A DNA stretch of 64,000 nucleotides from Flavobacteriales bacterium (GTDB lineage: Bacteria > Bacteroidota > Bacteroidia > Flavobacteriales > CAJXXR01), in contig JAOAQX010000003.1 of the NCBI GenBank assembly GCA_025210805.1, positions 144,940 to 208,939 on the forward strand. The letters run 5' to 3'. The translations under genes were made by a program, and so were the position numbers. Each line of letters starts with the position of its first letter. Positions within the stretch are counted from its first letter, which is position 1. This document shows positions 28,010 through 37,707 of the stretch, in pieces. The notes beneath the pieces were generated by a model. That model had not been told where the DNA came from and did no database searches. It saw only the letters and a program-made list of their open reading frames with translations.

Positions 28010-28065
28010 CAATATTTTGGTAAAAAAGATGTATTTTTGACATAAAAAACCAATATAATGGTAAA
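28010..28065 (+). promoter_or_regulatory. hipBA promoter with two direct-repeat operator candidates
   Basis: CAATATTTTGGTAAA (28010-28024) and CAATATAATGGTAAA (28051-28065) match at 13 of 15 positions and are 41 bases apart. Between them TATTTTTG (28032-28039) fits the TAnnTTTG -7 box. The second repeat covers the hipB start codon. This is the arrangement expected for autorepression by the HTH antitoxin, but binding is inferred. Confidence 0.55.
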
Positions 28066-28333
28066 TATATCCATTTCTACACCTCAAGATATCAAACTTA
28101 GAATAGCCGATATCTGTAAGAGTAAAAGAAAAAAAGAAAAGGTGAGCAGAGAAGAGCTGGCTCAATTTGTAGGAATGTCTAAAACTACTTTACAAAATAT
28201 TGAATTGGGCAAAAATTATACTTTCGATAATCTTTTAAAAGTGGCTTATTATTTTGGATTATTAGATCAAATTATGGAAACTTTGACTGCTTATCAAGAA
28301 CAAGATGACTTGAATAATATGTCTCTCTATTAA
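28058..28333 (+). CDS. hipB: HipB-type XRE-family antitoxin
   Basis: 91 residues with a helix-turn-helix of the XRE/Cro type (EELAQFVGMSKTTLQNIELGKN at about 36-57, recognition helix SKTTLQNIE). It lies nine bases upstream of a HipA-type kinase gene and should be its antitoxin and the operon repressor. Confidence 0.85.
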   Translation: MVNISISTPQDIKLRIADICKSKRKKEKVSREELAQFVGMSKTTLQNIELGKNYTFDNLLKVAYYFGLLDQIMETLTAYQEQDDLNNMSLY

Positions 28334-28342
28334 TACCCTACC

Positions 28343-29602
28343 ATGAAAAAGGAATTTCTTATTGATATACGTTTATTTGAAACCGAAATTGCTCGTTTGG
28401 GAATAGATCCTGCCCAAAAAACGGTTCATTTCCAATACAACGAAAGCTTTTTAGAGCGTAATTTATATAAGAGTATATTCCCATATATTTTCAGGAGAAT
28501 CAAAAACATACAAAGCTTTAATCAATTCTTTGATAGTTCTTTTCAAGGGCTTCCTCCGATGATTGCAGATTCTTTACCCGATGCCTTCGGAAATTCGATT
28601 TTTAAAACTTGGTTTGAACATCAAAAAAAACAAGGACAAACGCTTACAAATATAGAACTACTCTCTTATGTAGGAAATAGAGGAATGGGTGCTTTGGAGT
28701 TTTTCCCGAATAAAACAAAATTACCGTTATCCGAATTTTCCTTACATGATCTAGCAAATATTTCCGAACAAATTTTACAACAAAAAAGAGGGATTAAAGA
28801 ATGGAGATTTAATGAGCAAGCTCTTTTGAATATTTTCAAATTAGGTACCTCAGCAGGTGGAGCAAGACCCAAAGTACTGATAGCCGAAAACCCATTAAAC
28901 AAAAGTATCACCGCTGGAGATATTTTCGAAAACAAAAACCTAAATTACTATATTGTTAAGCTCCATTTGGAAATGGACGAATACAATAAATCGCAAATAG
29001 AGTTCACCTATCATCAACTGGTAAAAAAATGTGGAATTCAGATGATGGATTCGAAGCTCATTGATGGTAAACACTTTGCTACTTTACGCTTTGATCGACT
29101 TCATGGTGAAAAACATCATTGTCTCACAGCATCTGGAATGAGTGGTTGGGATTTTAAATCATCCACATACGCTAGTTATGAAAACTTATTTAAACTCTGC
29201 TTAGGTATAAAATTACCCTTACAAGATCTTGAAGAGCTTTATAGACGTATGGTGTTTAATGTGACTTTTGCTAATGAAGATGACCATTTGAAAAATCATA
29301 GTTTTATTTATCAAAAAGAGACGGATTCATGGAGATTATCCCCTGCTTACGATATCACTTATTCCAAAAATCCATTAGTAAATTACAGAGAAACTCAGAG
29401 AGCTTTATCTATTAATAATAAAAGGAATCATATCAAATTTGAGGATCTACAAACAGTAGCGAAACAGTTTCAAATAAAGAAATACAAACAAATTATTGAT
29501 GCTGTCCAAAGCCAAATACCGCAATGGAACATATTAGCAAAAAACAATGGAGTCCATCAATATTTAATTAAGTCCATAGAAAAGGATTTTGCGATATTCT
29601 AG
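28343..29602 (+). CDS. hipA: HipA-family serine/threonine kinase toxin
   Basis: 419 residues, the usual length for HipA. N-terminal couple-HipA region (GLPPMIADSLPDAFGN, GNRGMGALEFFP), P-loop-like GTSAGGARPKVLIA, ATP-binding lysine in YIVKLHLEM, catalytic loop ANEDDHLKNHSF and metal-binding SPAYDITY. E. coli HipA phosphorylates glutamyl-tRNA synthetase and arrests translation; the target here is unknown. All kinase motifs look intact, so the toxin is probably functional. Confidence 0.92.
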   Translation: MKKEFLIDIRLFETEIARLGIDPAQKTVHFQYNESFLERNLYKSIFPYIFRRIKNIQSFNQFFDSSFQGLPPMIADSLPDAFGNSIFKTWFEHQKKQGQTLTNIELLSYVGNRGMGALEFFPNKTKLPLSEFSLHDLANISEQILQQKRGIKEWRFNEQALLNIFKLGTSAGGARPKVLIAENPLNKSITAGDIFENKNLNYYIVKLHLEMDEYNKSQIEFTYHQLVKKCGIQMMDSKLIDGKHFATLRFDRLHGEKHHCLTASGMSGWDFKSSTYASYENLFKLCLGIKLPLQDLEELYRRMVFNVTFANEDDHLKNHSFIYQKETDSWRLSPAYDITYSKNPLVNYRETQRALSINNKRNHIKFEDLQTVAKQFQIKKYKQIIDAVQSQIPQWNILAKNNGVHQYLIKSIEKDFAIF

Positions 29603-32024: not shown

Positions 32025-32060
32025 AAGCAGTGTTGGAAATTAATTTTCAGCACTGCTTTT
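32025..32060. terminator. Terminator between glutamine synthetase and the WYL gene
   Basis: AAGCAGTG and CACTGCTT with further inner pairing GAAAT/ATTTTC, followed by TTTTTT on the plus strand. It ends glnN and overlaps the last codons of the convergent WYL gene. Confidence 0.85.
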
Positions 32061-33065
32061 TTTGTGGTAATTATTTAGTGCTTGCTTTAATTTCCGTTTA
32101 ATTCTCCTTCTTAGCCCATTAGGCTTTAGGACTTCAATAGAATCTCCAAATCCTAAAATCAATCTTTCAAGTTCGTAGTTTTGATGAACTTCTATTTTTA
32201 TTTCTATGGATTGATCTGCATAGGTTTTTATTAATTCTTGCGATGAATGAAAAGGCTTTGTGAGTACATAAGGAGCATTTGATCGATCTATTTTTAAAAA
32301 AATCGACTCTTTTTGCTTTGGTTTCATCACAGTAACTCCAATGGTGTTTTTGTAGTATTCATCAGGATTAATCGTGGTTTTTTTATAGAAATAATCCCAT
32401 AAAAAATCAATGGAAATAATTCTATCTAAGGCCAGTGTCATAAGAGTTTCTTTACTGGAACCCACTAAGAACCAACGATTATTAAATTCCTTTAACCAAT
32501 AAGGATGAATTGTGAATAAAGACGATTTTCTGGCAGAAAAAGACTGGTAACAAATACTCAAAACTGTTTTTTTTATAATGCTTTGATAAAGAATATCTAG
32601 GTATTTCAAACCTTTTAATCTTTCGTTTTTATCAAGGTGAATTACCGGACCTCTTTGGTTTTGCTCGGCATAAATCTTGTCTTCAAGTCTATGGATAATA
32701 CCTCCTAGCTCAGAAAAAAGTGAAAAATCTTTAAATTGTTTTAGCATTTCAACAGTTTCAGAGAGAATATACATATCGTTTTCCGTTATAGGAATATCCG
32801 TTATGGTGTAGTTAGGATCTTCATATTTATAATATTTTTTATCATACACTACAATCGGTGCATTATAGCCCAATTTATCACTTCGCATATTTTGGATATC
32901 CAATTGAATCGTTCTCTTACTCACATTGACATCACGACTCTCATACTCATAAAGAGCATCTGAACAGGCTGTGATTAAATCCTTCAAAGTCCATTTTTTA
33001 TACCTGTTTTGAAGACATTTATCAATGGTTTTATATCGTATTAATGCATTTTTATTTTGAGCCAT
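32040..33065 (-). CDS. WYL-domain transcriptional regulator
   Basis: 341 residues. N-terminal winged helix (ALIRYKTIDKCL, TLKDLITACSDALYEYES, VSKRTIQLDIQNMRSDK), then a WYL domain at about 155-260 (VLSICYQSFSARKS, IHPYWLKEFNNRWFLVGSS, LALDRIISI) and a WCX-type C-terminal extension ending in a basic helix (RRRIKRKLKQAL). WYL domains bind small ligands or nucleic acid and regulate many defence and RNA-repair loci. It is divergent from the permuted tRNA array and the SPFH-ligase-Pnkp genes and is the obvious candidate for their regulator. Confidence 0.9.
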   Translation of the reverse strand: MAQNKNALIRYKTIDKCLQNRYKKWTLKDLITACSDALYEYESRDVNVSKRTIQLDIQNMRSDKLGYNAPIVVYDKKYYKYEDPNYTITDIPITENDMYILSETVEMLKQFKDFSLFSELGGIIHRLEDKIYAEQNQRGPVIHLDKNERLKGLKYLDILYQSIIKKTVLSICYQSFSARKSSLFTIHPYWLKEFNNRWFLVGSSKETLMTLALDRIISIDFLWDYFYKKTTINPDEYYKNTIGVTVMKPKQKESIFLKIDRSNAPYVLTKPFHSSQELIKTYADQSIEIKIEVHQNYELERLILGFGDSIEVLKPNGLRRRIKRKLKQALNNYHKKSSAEN

Positions 33066-33291
33066 TAGTGATGTTTTTTGATAAAATTAGAAATAAAAAA
33101 CTACTACGCAAAATAAATACGCACTTACTATTCATCTTTGCTTTGTCATTTAGAAATAAATGCTCAAAACGATCTTTAAATTTATTTACAATATTGAGAG
33201 AGCCTTGTTTTGTGTTTCTGTATAGCACTATTGTTCAATAATCTGCCCTTTAGGTATCGATTTATAGTATTCAGCTCGGCTCAAAGGTTTG
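33066..33291 (+). promoter_or_regulatory. Upstream region of the RNA-repair locus
   Basis: 226 AT-rich bases between the divergent WYL gene and the tRNA-like array. It must carry the WYL promoter and probably that of the array. No TAnnTTTG box is clear. Near its right end, CTCGGCTCAAAGG followed by TTTGTGAG resembles a degenerate D-arm, and CTCATA at 33306-33311 matches a Met(CAU) anticodon loop, so the remnant of a fourth tRNA-like unit is possible. Confidence 0.4.
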
Positions 33292-33311
33292 TGAGTTACC
33301 AAAAACTCATA

Positions 33312-33379
33312 TCACGCTATGGCCGCAGGTTCGAATCCTGCCGAGAGTTTCTCGTAGTTCAGAGGTTAGAACAATAGCC
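33312..33379 (+). ncRNA. Circularly permuted tRNA-Asp(GUC)-like module, open at the anticodon loop
   Basis: Order in DNA: anticodon-loop 3' part TCAC, anticodon-stem 3' strand GCTAT (33316-33320), variable GGCC, T-arm GCAGG-TTCGAAT-CCTGC, acceptor CGAGA, loop GTT, acceptor TCTCG, TA, D-arm GTTC-AGAGGTTA-GAAC, A, anticodon-stem 5' strand ATAGC (33374-33378), C. ATAGC pairs perfectly with GCTAT. The loop would be C..TCAC, against CTGTCAC in tRNA-Asp, so only U33 and G34 are missing. The D-arm and loop resemble bacterial tRNA-Asp. The acceptor is shortened to 5 bp. Its ends mimic a tRNA cut in the anticodon loop. Confidence 0.75.
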
Positions 33380-33460
33380 ACCCTATGTAGGTTCGAATCC
33401 TACTACTCTTCACTTGAGTATGGCGGAACTGGAAGACGCGCTAGATTTAAGTTCTAGTAG
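33380..33460 (+). ncRNA. Circularly permuted tRNA-Leu(UAA)-like module, open in the variable arm
   Basis: Order: variable-arm 3' part ACCCTATG, T-arm GTAGG-TTCGAAT-CCTAC, acceptor TACTC, loop TTCACTT, acceptor GAGTA, TG, three-pair D-stem GCG/CGC around GAACTGGAAGA, G, anticodon arm CTAGA-TTTAAGT-TCTAG with anticodon UAA at 33448-33450, then TAG, which can pair with CTA of the variable arm. The D-arm TGGCGGAACTGGAAGACGCG is the signature of tRNA-Leu. The boundary with the Asp module is uncertain by a few bases, because ATAGCC could also be read as variable-arm stem. Confidence 0.75.
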
Positions 33461-33535
33461 AGGTAGAGCAATCGACTGATAATCGATGTGTTGTGGGTTC
33501 GATTCCCACTTTGACTGAAGAGTCAAATAGCTCAA
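33461..33535 (+). ncRNA. Circularly permuted tRNA-Ile(GAU)-like module, open in the D-loop
   Basis: Order: D-loop 3' part AGGTA, D-stem GAGC, A, anticodon arm ATCGA-CTGATAA-TCGAT with anticodon GAU at 33478-33480, variable GTGTT, T-arm GTGGG-TTCGATT-CCCAC, acceptor TTTGACT, loop GAAG, acceptor AGTCAAA, TA, D-stem GCTC, AA. Rejoined at the D-loop it gives a complete cloverleaf with all four stems perfect (7, 4, 5 and 5 bp). The best preserved of the three modules. Confidence 0.85.
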
Positions 33536-33557
33536 TTTTTCAGACTAAAAATCTGAA

Positions 33558-33843
33558 GTTAACTTACAGAAAATGGGTGAATGATTTCGGTGTTAAAAGT
33601 CAACAACTGTTGAAAAATGACACAACTTGTAACAGACTTGCAATTGCTATCAATAGGATTCATTAAAGTGTTTCTCTTCTATTGAGAATATTGGATTCAT
33701 TAAGAATACCAATAAAGAAAAATAGAACACAAGCATATTTAAGAATCAAATTCATAGAAATTCCGTTTGTTTCACGAGTGAAATCACTCACTCATTTCTT
33801 TATGAAGTATCAAACAAAAATTAATCTATAAAAACAAAAAAAA
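33558..33843 (+). promoter_or_regulatory. Structured non-coding stretch before the SPFH gene
   Basis: 286 AT-rich bases. Direct repeats GGATTCATTAA occur at 33656-33666 and 33693-33703. Closer to the gene, GAGTGA/TCACTC (33776-33789) forms a hairpin, nested between CATAGAAAT and ATTTCTTTATG (about 33753-33804), which pair with a two-base bulge. The stem could be a processing site, attenuator or leader structure. No TAnnTTTG promoter was seen, so the array and the genes may share one transcript. Confidence 0.45.
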
Positions 33844-34947
33844 ATGGAACTAAGAGTAAAAATAAATGCCTACGAAGTAGGAATCGTAATGAAAGATGGG
33901 AATATTATTGATATTCTTACAGAAGGTAAATACTTCAAGAAACTTGGTACCGAGGTGTATATTTATAATACAACACAGCTCTTTACAAGTAGAATTGAGT
34001 GGTCAATTTTGGAAAAAAATGAAAAACTCATGAAAATGTTGGAAATTGTGGATACCACTGAGAGTGAATTGGCAATAGTATATAAAGACAACAGGTTTTA
34101 TACTGTTGTAAATAACTCTAGACTTGCGTACTGGAAAGGAGTTTTGAATATGAAATATAAAAAATATGACATTGAAGAACTTTCTGTTCCTAAAGAAATC
34201 AATAAAGCGATACTGAAATACCCACTAATGACTCAGTATTATAGACTTCTAGAAGTATCTTCACAAGAACAAGCAATCCTGTATGTGAATGGTGAAAAAC
34301 GCAGTATTATCAAGGGGGGACAATACTATTTCTGGAACAACACAAAGAAATTGAGACTAGAAAAAGTGGATATGAGAAATCAGGACATGGAAATTATCGG
34401 TCAGGAAATTCTCACCAAAGATAAAGCAGCAATTAGGATAAATTTTCAAGCCAATTATAAAATAATTGATGTAGAAAAAGCCCTGATGGAAAACAAAGAT
34501 TTCAGCAAACAACTGTATTCTTCGCTTCAAATGGCGATAAGATCTTATATCGGTACACTAACGCTGGATGAATTGATGGAAAACAAAGAGCAAATTTCTG
34601 GTTTTATTATAGAAAAAATCAAAAGTAAAATCACAAAACTGGGTGTCGCAGTAAACTCTGCAGGAATTAAAGATATTATTCTTCCTGGTGAGATAAAGGA
34701 AATTATGAACAAAGTATTGGTAGCACAAAAGAGTGCTCAAGCAAATACGATCACCAGAAGAGAGGAAACGGCTTCAACAAGAAGTTTGTTGAATACTGCA
34801 AAATTGATGGATGACAATGAAATGCTCTTCAGATTGAAAGAGATGGAATATGTAGAAAAAATTGCAGAAAAAATCGGAGAAATTTCCTTGAATGGAAATG
34901 GAGGTATGGTGAAGCAATTGAAAGAAATCTTTGGAGCTAAATCTTGA
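33844..34947 (+). CDS. SPFH/band-7 (slipin-like) protein of an RNA-repair locus
   Basis: 367 residues. An N-terminal domain of ~150 residues (KINAYEVGIVMKDGN, ILTEGKYFKKLG) resembles the beta domain of slipins found beside RNA-repair enzymes. The SPFH domain follows (SQEQAILYVNGEKRSII, EILTKDKAAIRINFQANYKI, SLQMAIRSYIGTLTLDELM, LGVAVNSAGIKDIILPGEIK) with a helical tail (AQANTITRREETASTRSL). There is no hydrophobic N-terminal segment, so unlike typical stomatins it seems to be soluble or peripheral. SPFH proteins form large cages; it may scaffold the repair enzymes. First protein gene after the tRNA-like array. Confidence 0.85.
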   Translation: MELRVKINAYEVGIVMKDGNIIDILTEGKYFKKLGTEVYIYNTTQLFTSRIEWSILEKNEKLMKMLEIVDTTESELAIVYKDNRFYTVVNNSRLAYWKGVLNMKYKKYDIEELSVPKEINKAILKYPLMTQYYRLLEVSSQEQAILYVNGEKRSIIKGGQYYFWNNTKKLRLEKVDMRNQDMEIIGQEILTKDKAAIRINFQANYKIIDVEKALMENKDFSKQLYSSLQMAIRSYIGTLTLDELMENKEQISGFIIEKIKSKITKLGVAVNSAGIKDIILPGEIKEIMNKVLVAQKSAQANTITRREETASTRSLLNTAKLMDDNEMLFRLKEMEYVEKIAEKIGEISLNGNGGMVKQLKEIFGAKS

Positions 34948-34999
34948 ACTAAGGCACGATTTGAATAATCAATCGTGCCGTTCTATAAAAACAGAAAAA

Positions 35000-36022
35000 A
35001 TGAAATCTACAATAAACATTCAGAAAATTAGAGAATACATATCAAAAGGCTGGATTACAGAAAAAAAACACCCTATTCATGATATTTTTATTTACAATTA
35101 CAGCCAAAAAACACAATTTGAATATTTTTGGGACACAACCACAATACAGTGTAGAGGATTGATTTTAAACAAAGAGGGCTTTATACATGCAAGACCTTTT
35201 CAGAAATTCTTTAACCTATCTGAGCATCAAGGTGAAATCCCAAATGAAGCCTTTGAAGTTTTTGAAAAAATGGATGGTTCATTGGGGATATTATATTGGC
35301 TAGAAAATGAACCTTATATTGCAACAAGAGGCTCTTTTGAGTCTTGTCAAGCAAAGTTTGCAAATCAACTTTTAAGAACAAAATATCGACATATCTGGCA
35401 AAATTTGAATCCTAAATACACATACCTATTTGAGATTATCTATCCAGAAAATAGAATTGTGGTAGATTATGGAGCAGATGAAAAACTGGTTTTACTAGCC
35501 ATTATTGACACACAAACAGGACAAGATATACCATTAAAAAACATCGGATTTCCTTTGGTAAAGAAATACTCAAACATCAAAAACATTACAGGTTTATCTA
35601 AGGAAAACAAAAAGAATGCTGAAGGCTATGTATTGCGATTTGAAAGTGGATTGAGATTAAAAATCAAATTTGACGAATATATTCACTTACATAAAATATA
35701 CAATAACATTTCCTCTTTAGTCATTTGGAATCAGATGAAAAACGAAAGTTTAAACGAAAAATTTTTAGCGGAAATTCCCGATGAAATTTATCCATGGATA
35801 AAAGAAATACAACATAAACTTGAGAAACAATATTCTGAAATAGAAAATCTTGCAAAACAAGAATACAAAGAATATCATACAAGAAAAGAAACTGCTGAAT
35901 ATTTCAAAACTTGTAAGCATCCAAGTATTTTGTTTTCCATGTTGAATGGAAAAAGTTATTCGGAATATATATGGAAATTAATTAGACCAAATTTTGAAAA
36001 ACCCAAAATAACAAGAAAATGA
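35000..36022 (+). CDS. T4 Rnl1-like ATP-dependent RNA ligase
   Basis: 340 residues from ATG 35000; the TTG at 34931 lies inside the previous gene and is unlikely. Nucleotidyltransferase motifs: I EKMDGSLGI with the AMP-accepting Lys90, Ia ATRGSF, III TYLFEIIYPENRIV, IV AEGYVLRF, V LRLKIKFDEY. ARPFQKFFNLSEHQ before motif I is typical of the T4 RNA ligase 1 family. T4 Rnl1 joins 5'-phosphate and 3'-OH ends and seals tRNAs cut in the anticodon loop by anticodon nucleases. It ends with an ATGA overlap into the Pnkp gene, so both products are probably made together. Confidence 0.9.
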   Translation: MKSTINIQKIREYISKGWITEKKHPIHDIFIYNYSQKTQFEYFWDTTTIQCRGLILNKEGFIHARPFQKFFNLSEHQGEIPNEAFEVFEKMDGSLGILYWLENEPYIATRGSFESCQAKFANQLLRTKYRHIWQNLNPKYTYLFEIIYPENRIVVDYGADEKLVLLAIIDTQTGQDIPLKNIGFPLVKKYSNIKNITGLSKENKKNAEGYVLRFESGLRLKIKFDEYIHLHKIYNNISSLVIWNQMKNESLNEKFLAEIPDEIYPWIKEIQHKLEKQYSEIENLAKQEYKEYHTRKETAEYFKTCKHPSILFSMLNGKSYSEYIWKLIRPNFEKPKITRK

Positions 36023-36900
36023 AAAAGATCATTTTACTTAAAGGTTTACCCGCAAGTGGAAAATCAACTTATGCAAAAGCCTTGGTAAAAAACAACCCAG
36101 GAATGTATAAAAGAATCAATAGAGATGAACTAAGAGACATGCTAGATTCTGGAAAATTTTCTAAGGGAAATGAGCAATTTGTTAAAAAAACCAGAGACTT
36201 TTTAATCAAAATGGCACTACAAGACGGAAAACACGTGATTGTAGATGATACCAATTTGCATAGCTCAAATGAAGAGAAAATGAGAGCAATTGCAAAAGAA
36301 TTTAAAGAAGAAACTGGACACCAAGTTCGGGTAGAAATAAAAACATTTGACACTTCTGTAGAAGTTTGTATAAAACGAGATCTATTGCGTGAAAATCCCG
36401 TTGGACAAGCAGTTATTAGAAAAATGGAACGACAAATGAATTCTAAGGAAAAAAAGTATCCTAAATACAGCGTTCAAAACCCTGAACTGCCCAAGGCAAT
36501 TATATGCGATTTAGATGGAACTCTAGCCTTAATGCACGATAGAGGTCCATTTGAGGGGAATAAATGCTTATCAGATTTACCAAACACTCCAATAGTGAAT
36601 TTGGTGAAAAATTATCATAAAATGGGCTTCAAAATACTCTTGCTTTCGGGGAGAGATGGACAATTTGAAAATGAAACCAAAAAATGGCTGGAGCAATATA
36701 AAATCCCTTATGATCAACTATGGATGCGTGCTAAAAAAGACATGAGAAAAGATGCCATTATCAAAAAAGAATTATTCAAACAAAACATTCAGGATCAATA
36801 TTTTGTGGAATTTATTCTCGATGACAGAAATCAAGTAGTGGATTTATGGAGAAATGAATTAAATTTACCTTGTCTTCAAGTGTATTATGGGGATTTTTAA
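36019..36900 (+). CDS. T4 Pnkp-like polynucleotide 5'-kinase/3'-phosphatase
   Basis: 293 residues, close to T4 Pnkp (301). N-terminal kinase: P-loop LKGLPASGKSTYAKAL, catalytic INRDELR, VDDTNLH, and lid KRDLLRENPVG. C-terminal HAD phosphatase: ICDLDGTLALM with nucleophile Asp, RGPFEGNKC, LLSGRDG and ILDDRNQVVDLW. The enzyme removes a 2',3'-cyclic or 3' phosphate and phosphorylates the 5'-OH, making the ends that the ligase needs. With Rnl1 it is the complete phage T4-style tRNA repair pair. Confidence 0.93.
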   Translation: MKKIILLKGLPASGKSTYAKALVKNNPGMYKRINRDELRDMLDSGKFSKGNEQFVKKTRDFLIKMALQDGKHVIVDDTNLHSSNEEKMRAIAKEFKEETGHQVRVEIKTFDTSVEVCIKRDLLRENPVGQAVIRKMERQMNSKEKKYPKYSVQNPELPKAIICDLDGTLALMHDRGPFEGNKCLSDLPNTPIVNLVKNYHKMGFKILLLSGRDGQFENETKKWLEQYKIPYDQLWMRAKKDMRKDAIIKKELFKQNIQDQYFVEFILDDRNQVVDLWRNELNLPCLQVYYGDF

Positions 36901-36918: not shown

Positions 36919-37707
36919 ATGAAACGTAAACAACTATTCGAATTTGAAGATTTTCATTGGATTCCTTCATCCATCCGAGCTGGGATGACCAATTTATTAA
37001 TTGCTTTTGGAAATGTTGTAAAAGCAGATGAAGCCGTGTTTTCTCGACTCAATGAAGTGAAAAAAGAAATTCCCTTTGATCAAATTGTGGATCTTGGTTC
37101 TGGATCAGGTGGTATTATGCCTAAAGTAGCAAAAAAACTGGGAGTCAAATTAGTTTTAACAGATTTATATCCGAACCCAAAAGTAGTTTCTAGTTTTAAT
37201 GAACCTCAAAACGCCGATATTCGATATGAGGAGAAATCTGTAGATGCGACTCATTTTGAAACAGCTCCAAGGGGTTTTAAAACCATGATTAATAGTTTTC
37301 ATCACATGCCAGTACCCGTGGCAAAAAAGATTTTGGCTTCCGCCCAAAAAAACCGAGAGGGAATTTTGATTTATGAATTGGCAGAAAACAATATCCCATT
37401 TTTAGTATGGCTTTTATTGTTACCTATTTCTATCCCAATCTTAATGCTGATGGCTGTTTTCTTAACCTTACAAGTAAAAAAATGCACTTGGCAGCAGATT
37501 GTTTTCACTTTTATAATTCCCATTATTCCATTTATGTACGCCTTCGATGGTCAAACATCATTAATGAGAATCTACTCATTTAAAGATATCGAAAATGATT
37601 TATTAGGTGATCTTCCAAAAGAAGATTCTTATGTCTGGAGAATAGAAAAAGCCTTTAAGGAAAATGGAAAACAAATGGGTTATACCATTATTGGACAACC
37701 AAAATAA
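36919..37707 (+). CDS. Class I SAM-dependent methyltransferase-like protein with membrane segments
   Basis: 262 residues. SAM-binding motif I VDLGSGSGGIMPKVAKKLG near residue 60 and the acidic LVLTDLYPNP after strand 2; NSFHHMPVPVAKKIL at the position of motif IV. After residue ~155 two strongly hydrophobic stretches occur (PFLVWLLLLPISIPILMLMAVF and IVFTFIIPIIPFMYAF), so it is probably membrane-anchored. The substrate is unknown. It starts 18 bases after Pnkp on the same strand and might be co-transcribed; a role in RNA repair is not supported by its sequence. Confidence 0.75.
   Translation: MKRKQLFEFEDFHWIPSSIRAGMTNLLIAFGNVVKADEAVFSRLNEVKKEIPFDQIVDLGSGSGGIMPKVAKKLGVKLVLTDLYPNPKVVSSFNEPQNADIRYEEKSVDATHFETAPRGFKTMINSFHHMPVPVAKKILASAQKNREGILIYELAENNIPFLVWLLLLPISIPILMLMAVFLTLQVKKCTWQQIVFTFIIPIIPFMYAFDGQTSLMRIYSFKDIENDLLGDLPKEDSYVWRIEKAFKENGKQMGYTIIGQPK

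Follow-up and report, generated by a model that had tools for sequence, protein, structure and literature searches.

Tandem, tip-sealed and circularly permuted tRNA-like modules upstream of a Band-7 RNA-repair operon in a Flavobacteriales bacterium

Closest described systems and the locus

RNA-repair systems centred on SPFH/Band-7 proteins were reportedly set out by Burroughs and Aravind (2016), and Band-7, an RNA ligase and end-healing enzymes are said to go together in them with a cognate tRNA-like RNA ('a novel tRNA-like molecule'). Permuted tRNA genes of algae and archaea, in which the 3' half comes before the 5' half, give rise to mature tRNAs.

Among bacteria, the Y RNA YrlA has been described as a circular permutation of tRNA (PMC11472068), it lies in an RNA-repair operon of Salmonella (PMC7790460) and it ties PNPase to the Ro-like protein Rsr (PMC8394870), which goes against the original prediction that no comparable array was known from bacteria. 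The parts of the Salmonella report that we draw on suggest a competitive-inhibitor role for YrlA and judge it uncut by the nuclease studied, fragments of it not being detected there (PMC7790460). The Salmonella rtc operon is controlled by 5' tRNA fragments. For Anabaena it was reported that a slipin, rtcB and a tRNA array share the repressor TrcR: the array is a plasmid-borne operon of 26 tRNA genes induced by translation-targeting antibiotics, and rtcB and slipin are upregulated under the same stress and rise in the TrcR repressor mutant (PMC10272220). Also, the SPFH protein PaFlo8 of Pseudomonas aeruginosa is reported in an rtc locus (PMC13086221).

The window (the whole stretch of 64,000 nucleotides analysed here) carries an array of three tRNA-like modules (33312-33535) in the 778-bp gap between a WYL/WCX gene and a band-7 gene. 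The genes in question are:

32040..33065, minus strand: divergent transcriptional regulator with WYL/WCX domains (Pfam PF13280 and PF25583)
33844..34947, plus strand: SPFH/Band-7 protein of the slipin type (PF01145)
34931..36022, plus strand: T4 Rnl1-type RNA ligase (PF09511; TIGR02308 below its cut-off), the ORF as listed having a TTG start and overlapping band-7
36019..36900, plus strand: polynucleotide kinase with HAD phosphatase domain, PNKP type (PF13671 and PF25109)

Hence Band-7, an Rnl1-type ligase and a PNKP end-healing enzyme stand together in the window and a tRNA-like RNA adjoins Band-7, which are the components that the systems of Burroughs and Aravind reportedly hold, and priority for the RNA itself is probably theirs. 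An account of tandem permuted tRNA modules with Band-7 was found neither among the literature matches listed nor in the passages obtained from papers that cite or lie near that work. The RtcB gene of the window's genome is sited elsewhere, the window's operon having ligase and PNKP. Searching for neighbours with the ligase as query yielded three matches, spread over two other genomes; ORFs were listed for two of these loci (L002, L003), which show neither band-7 nor a tRNA by ARAGORN. Located 3' of PNKP is a methyltransferase-like gene (36919-37707; Methyltransf_25 below its cut-off), and near the repair locus (28058-29602) an HTH gene precedes a HipA-like kinase (HipA_C, Couple_hipA), the two forming a probable HipBA-type toxin-antitoxin pair.

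Of the RNAs known to us through the above work YrlA comes nearest, since T-arm, capped acceptor and D-arm follow one another in the order of its model and both are permuted tRNA-like domains with a closed acceptor. Unlike YrlA, which has one module and Ro/Rsr as its partner, the window's array has three modules (two or three in relatives). The YrlA model (RF02553) matches module 1 (33320-33373) with 31.5 bits, below the Rfam cut-off of 69, and 10 of 11 related loci score between 31.8 and 47.4 bits, all below 69 (the miss being the E. coli locus L149). Such low scores are not specific because an ordinary tandem tRNA pair in one relative (L123) reaches 33.6 bits. A Ro/TROVE gene (PF05731) had no match in the window's genome, 1 of 14 control genomes being positive. 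With scores under the cut-off and no Ro gene found in the genome, the RNA does not class as a Y RNA, despite the similar build.

Architecture and covariation of the permuted modules

All three modules run in the same order (T-arm, 3' acceptor strand, short loop, 5' acceptor strand, two bases, D-arm or D-strand) and this much of the original prediction, including the coordinates and acceptor loops of 3-7 bases, is borne out from the sequence, in which we read the following parts:

33316..33378, plus strand: permuted tRNA module 1, open in the anticodon loop and closed by the anticodon stem (helices 1-4 of alignment A2, see below)
33316-33320, plus strand: GCTAT of module 1, pairing with ATAGC at 33374-33378
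33325-33341, plus strand: module 1 T-arm
33342-33354, plus strand: module 1 acceptor hairpin CGAGA/TCTCG with a 3-nt loop (GTT), then TA
33357-33372, plus strand: module 1 D-arm
33387..33457, plus strand: permuted tRNA module 2, open in the variable loop (helices 5-9 of alignment A2)
33387-33403, plus strand: module 2 T-arm
33404-33420, plus strand: module 2 acceptor hairpin TACTC/GAGTA with a 7-nt loop (TTCACTT), then TG
33423-33439, plus strand: module 2 D-arm
33441-33457, plus strand: module 2 anticodon arm, complete
33460..33534, plus strand: permuted tRNA module 3, open in the D-loop and closed by the D-stem
33466-33469, plus strand: GAGC of module 3, pairing with GCTC at 33530-33533
33471-33487, plus strand: module 3 anticodon arm
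33493-33509, plus strand: module 3 T-arm
33510-33527, plus strand: module 3 acceptor hairpin TTTGACT/AGTCAAA with a 4-nt loop (GAAG), then TA

In module 3 the D (4), anticodon (5), T (5) and acceptor (7) stems are perfect. Since a strict scan of 80 loci found this module in the window only, we do not claim a D-loop-open third module for the family; a variant of it is visible by eye in one relative (L005). As in permuted tRNA genes of algae and archaea the 3' half lies upstream of the 5' half but, while those genes yield mature tRNAs, the tips are sealed here by short loops (just GTT, TTCACTT and GAAG, with no intervening stretch that would free the 5' and CCA ends) and the anticodons are not conserved. 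When folded alone, the window's sequence retains module 3 and the acceptor hairpin of module 1 in its minimum-energy structure, and the T-arms of modules 1 and 2 come out mispaired (z-score -2.2; among 100 shuffles, 2 fold equally well or better).

ARAGORN calls a spurious tRNA-Ser(aga) at 33421-33518 that straddles modules 2 and 3, and it is only as this spurious tRNA that the Rfam tRNA model passes its cut-off in the window; no Rfam 15 family except tRNA does so in the window and ten further loci. The tRNA model is also above its cut-off inside the arrays of four relatives (L006, L009, L064, L066), and such leaders may be mis-annotated as tRNA genes.

Our comparison draws on the best 80 of 545 matches to a Band-7 protein profile (Bacteroidota by name, with one named Rickettsiales), which together with the window make 81 loci. 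At least 400 nt upstream are available in 80 of the 81, L059 (69 nt upstream) being left out of the upstream parses, and a 330-nt RNA profile seeded with six loci matched 78 of those 80, missing L035 (short) and L078. Without any alignment, and with D-arms located independently of the acceptor, 169 T-arms followed by a D-arm were collected from 76 loci. Their first five permuted acceptor pairs are formed at 85.8% as opposed to 46.7% (sd 1.6) with partners swapped between loci, and 115 of the 169 acceptors are fully paired versus 7.6 after swapping. Where hairpin and D-arm were both seen, the latter starts exactly two bases past the former in 84 of 117 cases, which is the spacing that U8 and A9 would demand.

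In 70 loci that supplied 76 pairs of consecutive modules, pairing in the permuted register stands at 91.1% (module 1) and 87.9% (module 2). By contrast, the normal-order register, which would join the 5' acceptor strand to the 3' strand past the next T-arm, reaches a background level of 46.1%, with at least four of five pairs in just 14 of the 76; a normal-order tRNA reading is therefore rejected. Neither the 85.8% nor the 91.1% and 87.9% come from sets selected on the acceptor. Loss of acceptor complementarity in homologous loci had been named in advance as evidence against permutation and, as the figures above show, the complementarity is conserved. With a parser that does require pairing, 77 of the 80 loci have at least one permuted module and 62 at least two, some of these modules being chance parses (e.g. 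in L007).

Alignment A2 holds 41 of the 43 loci (from the 80) that passed a parser, L013 and L023 being left out; the parser needs acceptor and D-arm pairing, which leaves only the anticodon helices (1, 8, 9) free of selection. Across A2, 96.0% of cells are paired, against 69.1% in shuffles and 38-47% with partners slid, both sides change in 34 of 38 pairs and all nine helices show compensatory changes, the acceptor pairs occurring as all four Watson-Crick types at 7 of 12 positions and as three types at the other 5. The anticodon stems, in which both partners change at every pair, are paired at 90.2% (module 1) and at 92.9% and 98.2% (module 2, whose stem counts as two parts). Pairing is weaker where rows were not selected: there the first parsed module has 66.8% of its anticodon pairs formed versus 51.9% with swapped partners, and at least four of five pairs are present in just 45 of 76 loci, and only at the canonical variable-loop length of five. 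RNAalifold, unaided, returned the same permuted fold. The permuted design is more than chance and is under selection, so that random decay, which the original prediction had set aside on the strength of three modules in one sequence, is countered by pairing and compensatory change across dozens of loci.

Within acceptor caps, 16 of 49 four-base loops are GNRA, and in some relatives the loops extend to 15-22 nt. T-loops are nearly invariant in the A2 rows and, together with the GG of the D-loop, the tRNA elbow is kept, albeit this is no proof because the parsers ask for both.

Transcript context, Band-7 linkage and distribution

The array appears to be embedded in a larger RNA, whose predicted parts outside the modules are as follows:

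33106..33123, plus strand: predicted operator, degenerate ACGCA-N6/7-TGCG(T/C)A with one half-site changed (by eye)
33133..33140, plus strand: predicted -7 element CATCTTTG, which we take to be a promoter element of the Bacteroidota type, with the transcription start a few bases later (by eye; positioned as TATTTG in relatives)
33194..33284, plus strand: 5' domain of the RNA with internal hairpins (closing helix 33194-33203 with 33274-33284)
33290..33311, plus strand: hairpin before module 1 (alignment of 36 loci)
33539..33557, plus strand: free-standing, anticodon-arm-like hairpin with a 7-nt loop (from the sequence; similar hairpins past module 2 in relatives, by eye)
33558..33843, plus strand: remaining leader up to band-7, with short motifs conserved in relatives (alignment of 26 loci)

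The motif ACGCA-N6/7-TGCG(T/C)A occurs in its strict form in 24 of 78 loci, of which the window is not one, at a distance of up to 420 nt ahead of the RNA, and a TTTG box lies about 31-32 nt past it (by eye) in the same 24; motif and box are predicted to form an operator-promoter. The 5' domain, aligned in 36 loci (of 44 past the filter), has a consensus closing helix of twelve pairs and two inner hairpins, and some compensatory changes are seen in that helix, the window's among them. Beyond the modules, hairpins like anticodon arms and short motifs run on towards band-7 (26 loci), and RNAalifold found no conserved helix in the last stretch before band-7 among the 26 aligned leaders. Between array and band-7 the window has a terminator-like hairpin (33776-33793) with a weak T run only, and the region contains three terminator-like sites versus 0.4 in shuffles. 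Because a conserved 5' domain and a predicted promoter lie upstream, it is likely that all modules are threaded by one RNA, and, with the downstream hairpins and motifs considered as well, the array probably forms the centre of one long RNA, either a leader or a processed product.

Linkage to Band-7 is tight. T-arms on the plus strand occur within 1 kb before this Band-7 clade in all 79 loci with at least 700 nt upstream (a count to which ordinary tRNA genes contribute too) and on the minus strand in none of the same 79; the two loci with less than 700 nt (L035, L059) have no T-arms, and 3 of 305 background 1-kb windows do. In the 700 nt upstream of seven other SPFH genes, hand-picked from lower matches on plasmids, T-arms were found in 0 of 7. 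The search with a permuted covariance model that the original prediction called for bore fruit: model R1 gave matches over 100 bits in at least 10 of 296 Bacteroidota genomes, the window's included, and 10 of 10 lie beside a band-7 gene on the same strand, these genes being 45-48% identical to the window's or the window's own. At E<=0.001 R1 matches 289 of the 296 genomes, but only matches over 100 bits were counted because eight weaker ones that we inspected (L125-L132) were ordinary tandem tRNA genes. At most 10 candidates per genome were scored, under strict filters, so that 10 of 296 is a lower bound.

The ligase type varies among loci. Gene clusters, each annotated through a single representative, were counted within flanks of at most 6 kb either way (many are shorter): RtcB lies near 41 of 81 loci, the WYL regulator near 19, an RF-1-domain gene near 12, an RNase H-like gene near 11 and a gene with weak TPR similarity near 40, Band-7 being present in all 81 by construction. 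Ordinary tRNA gene clusters, several of them with about 5 nt between genes, lie upstream of the permuted RNA and on its strand in three relatives (L123 179-995, L119 2271-2679, L118 2778-3161). By analogy with the trn array of Anabaena, these extra tRNAs may be part of the same stress response. In Anabaena, too, slipin, rtcB and a tRNA array are found together, under common regulation, yet the repressor is of another family and the array is the plasmid-borne operon of 26 tRNA genes.

Records from a plasmid collection contain homologous slipins (33-40% identity) of a Clostridia member, Citrobacter, E. coli, four Burkholderia and Photobacterium; these are 8 of its 9 best matches (H8 left out), and one or two T-arms lie within 700 nt upstream in 8 of 8. 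The Clostridia member, Citrobacter and E. coli show a hairpin past the T-arm, as a sealed acceptor would be, placed two bases on in the Clostridia member; with shuffle fractions of 0.027, 0.045 and 0.028 for these single caps (L146, L147, L149), the signs of permutation outside Bacteroidota are suggestive and no proof. The four Burkholderia loci and Photobacterium each have one normal-order tRNA-like unit upstream of the slipin (L148, L155-L157, L150), with 6 or 7 of 7 pairs, counts that come without a shuffle control. The permuted order of the original prediction thus stands for the related Bacteroidota loci and is not universal in the wider clade, each of these five loci having at least one unit in normal order; permuted and unpermuted forms seem to coexist in one family. 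In Citrobacter rtcR is divergent to the slipin, and in E. coli the slipin is followed by RlaP, Pfam's RNA-repair nucleotidyltransferase ('RNA repair pathway'). The E. coli slipin leader is matched in 1624 of 5426 complete E. coli genomes, among them E. coli W, whose slipin and RlaP-type gene (L151 4849-6773; E. coli W 4494715-4496639) are preceded by a tRNA-like leader that is conserved (4494367-4494717) and by a promoter resembling the sigma-54 type (by eye); the annotated rtcR that Citrobacter has alongside is absent there. Viral contigs gave one distant slipin.

All in all, the observation behind the original prediction, a circularly permuted, tandem and tip-sealed array beside RNA-repair genes, is confirmed by pairing, A2, RNAalifold and the Band-7, ligase and PNKP genes, and its interpretation is borne out in part, a single RNA running through the modules being likely.

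Possible roles of the RNA

We propose that the modules make up one structured RNA that may serve as a tRNA-mimic scaffold of an SPFH-centred tRNA-repair complex; taking identity and role jointly, we consider this an even call. Its acceptor hairpins would stop charging and CCA addition, so that the RNA would keep the tRNA elbow while being useless for translation. Band-7 oligomers might bind the conserved 5' domain, and the displayed elbows and anticodon arms could bring cleaved tRNAs, tRNA-handling enzymes or both to ligase and kinase. The scaffold role is drawn from YrlA, the nearest analogue, which tethers an effector to Ro. Anticodon arms are intact in 80 parsed modules, with 27 different triplets (UUU being commonest with 19), and their 7-nt loops have U33 in 73 and purine 37 in 71 of the 80. 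Elbows that are kept, anticodons that vary with U33 and purine 37 maintained, and GNRA caps point to a stable, unchargeable tRNA mimic. The same variation weakens the identities Asp(GUC), Leu(UAA) and Ile(GAU) that the original prediction had assigned to the modules: they are not conserved, module 1 lacks an anticodon in one piece, and with 25 host tRNAs (Ile(gat) not included) BLASTN found just short matches of 11-19 nt, mostly in T-arms, besides two weak matches of 23 and 34 nt. On account of these matches, recent copying from the 25 host tRNAs is rejected.

Two rivals to a scaffold are serious. Firstly, the RNA could be a decoy whose modules or anticodon arms compete for or soak up tRNA-cutting nucleases, such that damage spares real tRNAs. 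The intact anticodon loops just described would suit such bait, as would the extra anticodon-arm-like hairpins past the modules and the inhibitor role suggested for YrlA in the passages cited above (PMC7790460); yet module 1 has no closed anticodon loop, Salmonella YrlA was judged uncut in that same report and a decoy would have to be abundant, so we hold this to be unlikely. Secondly, the modules could act in cis as a leader, their cleavage or binding switching expression of band-7 and ligase, or freeing fragments that the WYL regulator senses. Position, which is as compatible with cis regulation as it is with a scaffold, agrees with this (79 of 79 loci upstream of band-7 and on its strand), and so do the predicted operator-promoter further upstream in 24 of 78 loci, motifs that run to near the band-7 start as would suit an mRNA leader, the terminator-like hairpin between array and band-7, and the control of the Salmonella rtc operon by 5' tRNA fragments. 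Against it speak the lack of a conserved helix by RNAalifold in the last stretch of the 26 leaders and the weak T run of the window's hairpin, and a switch needs no two to three modules; to our minds, such a leader is a rather improbable option.

Working permuted tRNA genes, whose transcripts would mature into real tRNAs as those of some algae and archaea do, would account for the order of the halves. However, acceptor loops of 3-7 nt, often GNRA in relatives, leave no room for CCA or end processing, module 1 could not present an anticodon in one piece, anticodons vary between species and ordinary Asp(gtc) and Leu(taa) genes are present elsewhere in the genome (30 of 44 tRNA-model matches viewed, Ile(gat) not among them). 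With sealed tips, anticodon variation and ordinary tRNA genes present we reject this as very improbable. Decayed or rearranged tRNA pseudogenes, for which one might invoke the ordinary tRNA genes just upstream in some relatives (e.g. L006, L115, L118, L119, L123, L124), are hardly conceivable given the same strand and place in 79 of 79 loci and compensatory changes in every helix of 41 loci, covariation that refutes decay unless it were an alignment artefact, and the alignment-free pairing of 85.8% agrees with it.

Returning to the scaffold, a bolder version of it is speculative and, in our view, doubtful: tandem, tip-sealed permuted tRNAs, each opened elsewhere (in the anticodon, variable or D-loop), might form a widespread RNA class in which SPFH particles carry mimics of broken tRNAs, a reference set for recognising and holding real tRNA halves for ligation. 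If true, permuted tRNA mimics would have a second lineage, independent of Ro, that ranges from Bacteroidota to E. coli.

The design is kept in dozens of related bacteria. In the window, part of the array is mistaken for a tRNA gene by tRNA finders. Permuted tRNA mimicry would thus not be confined to Ro-linked Y RNAs, and SPFH/Band-7, a scaffold family of the membrane type, would be tied to a specific structured RNA. With a slipin leader in E. coli W, the role that such RNAs may have in tRNA repair becomes directly testable in E. coli.
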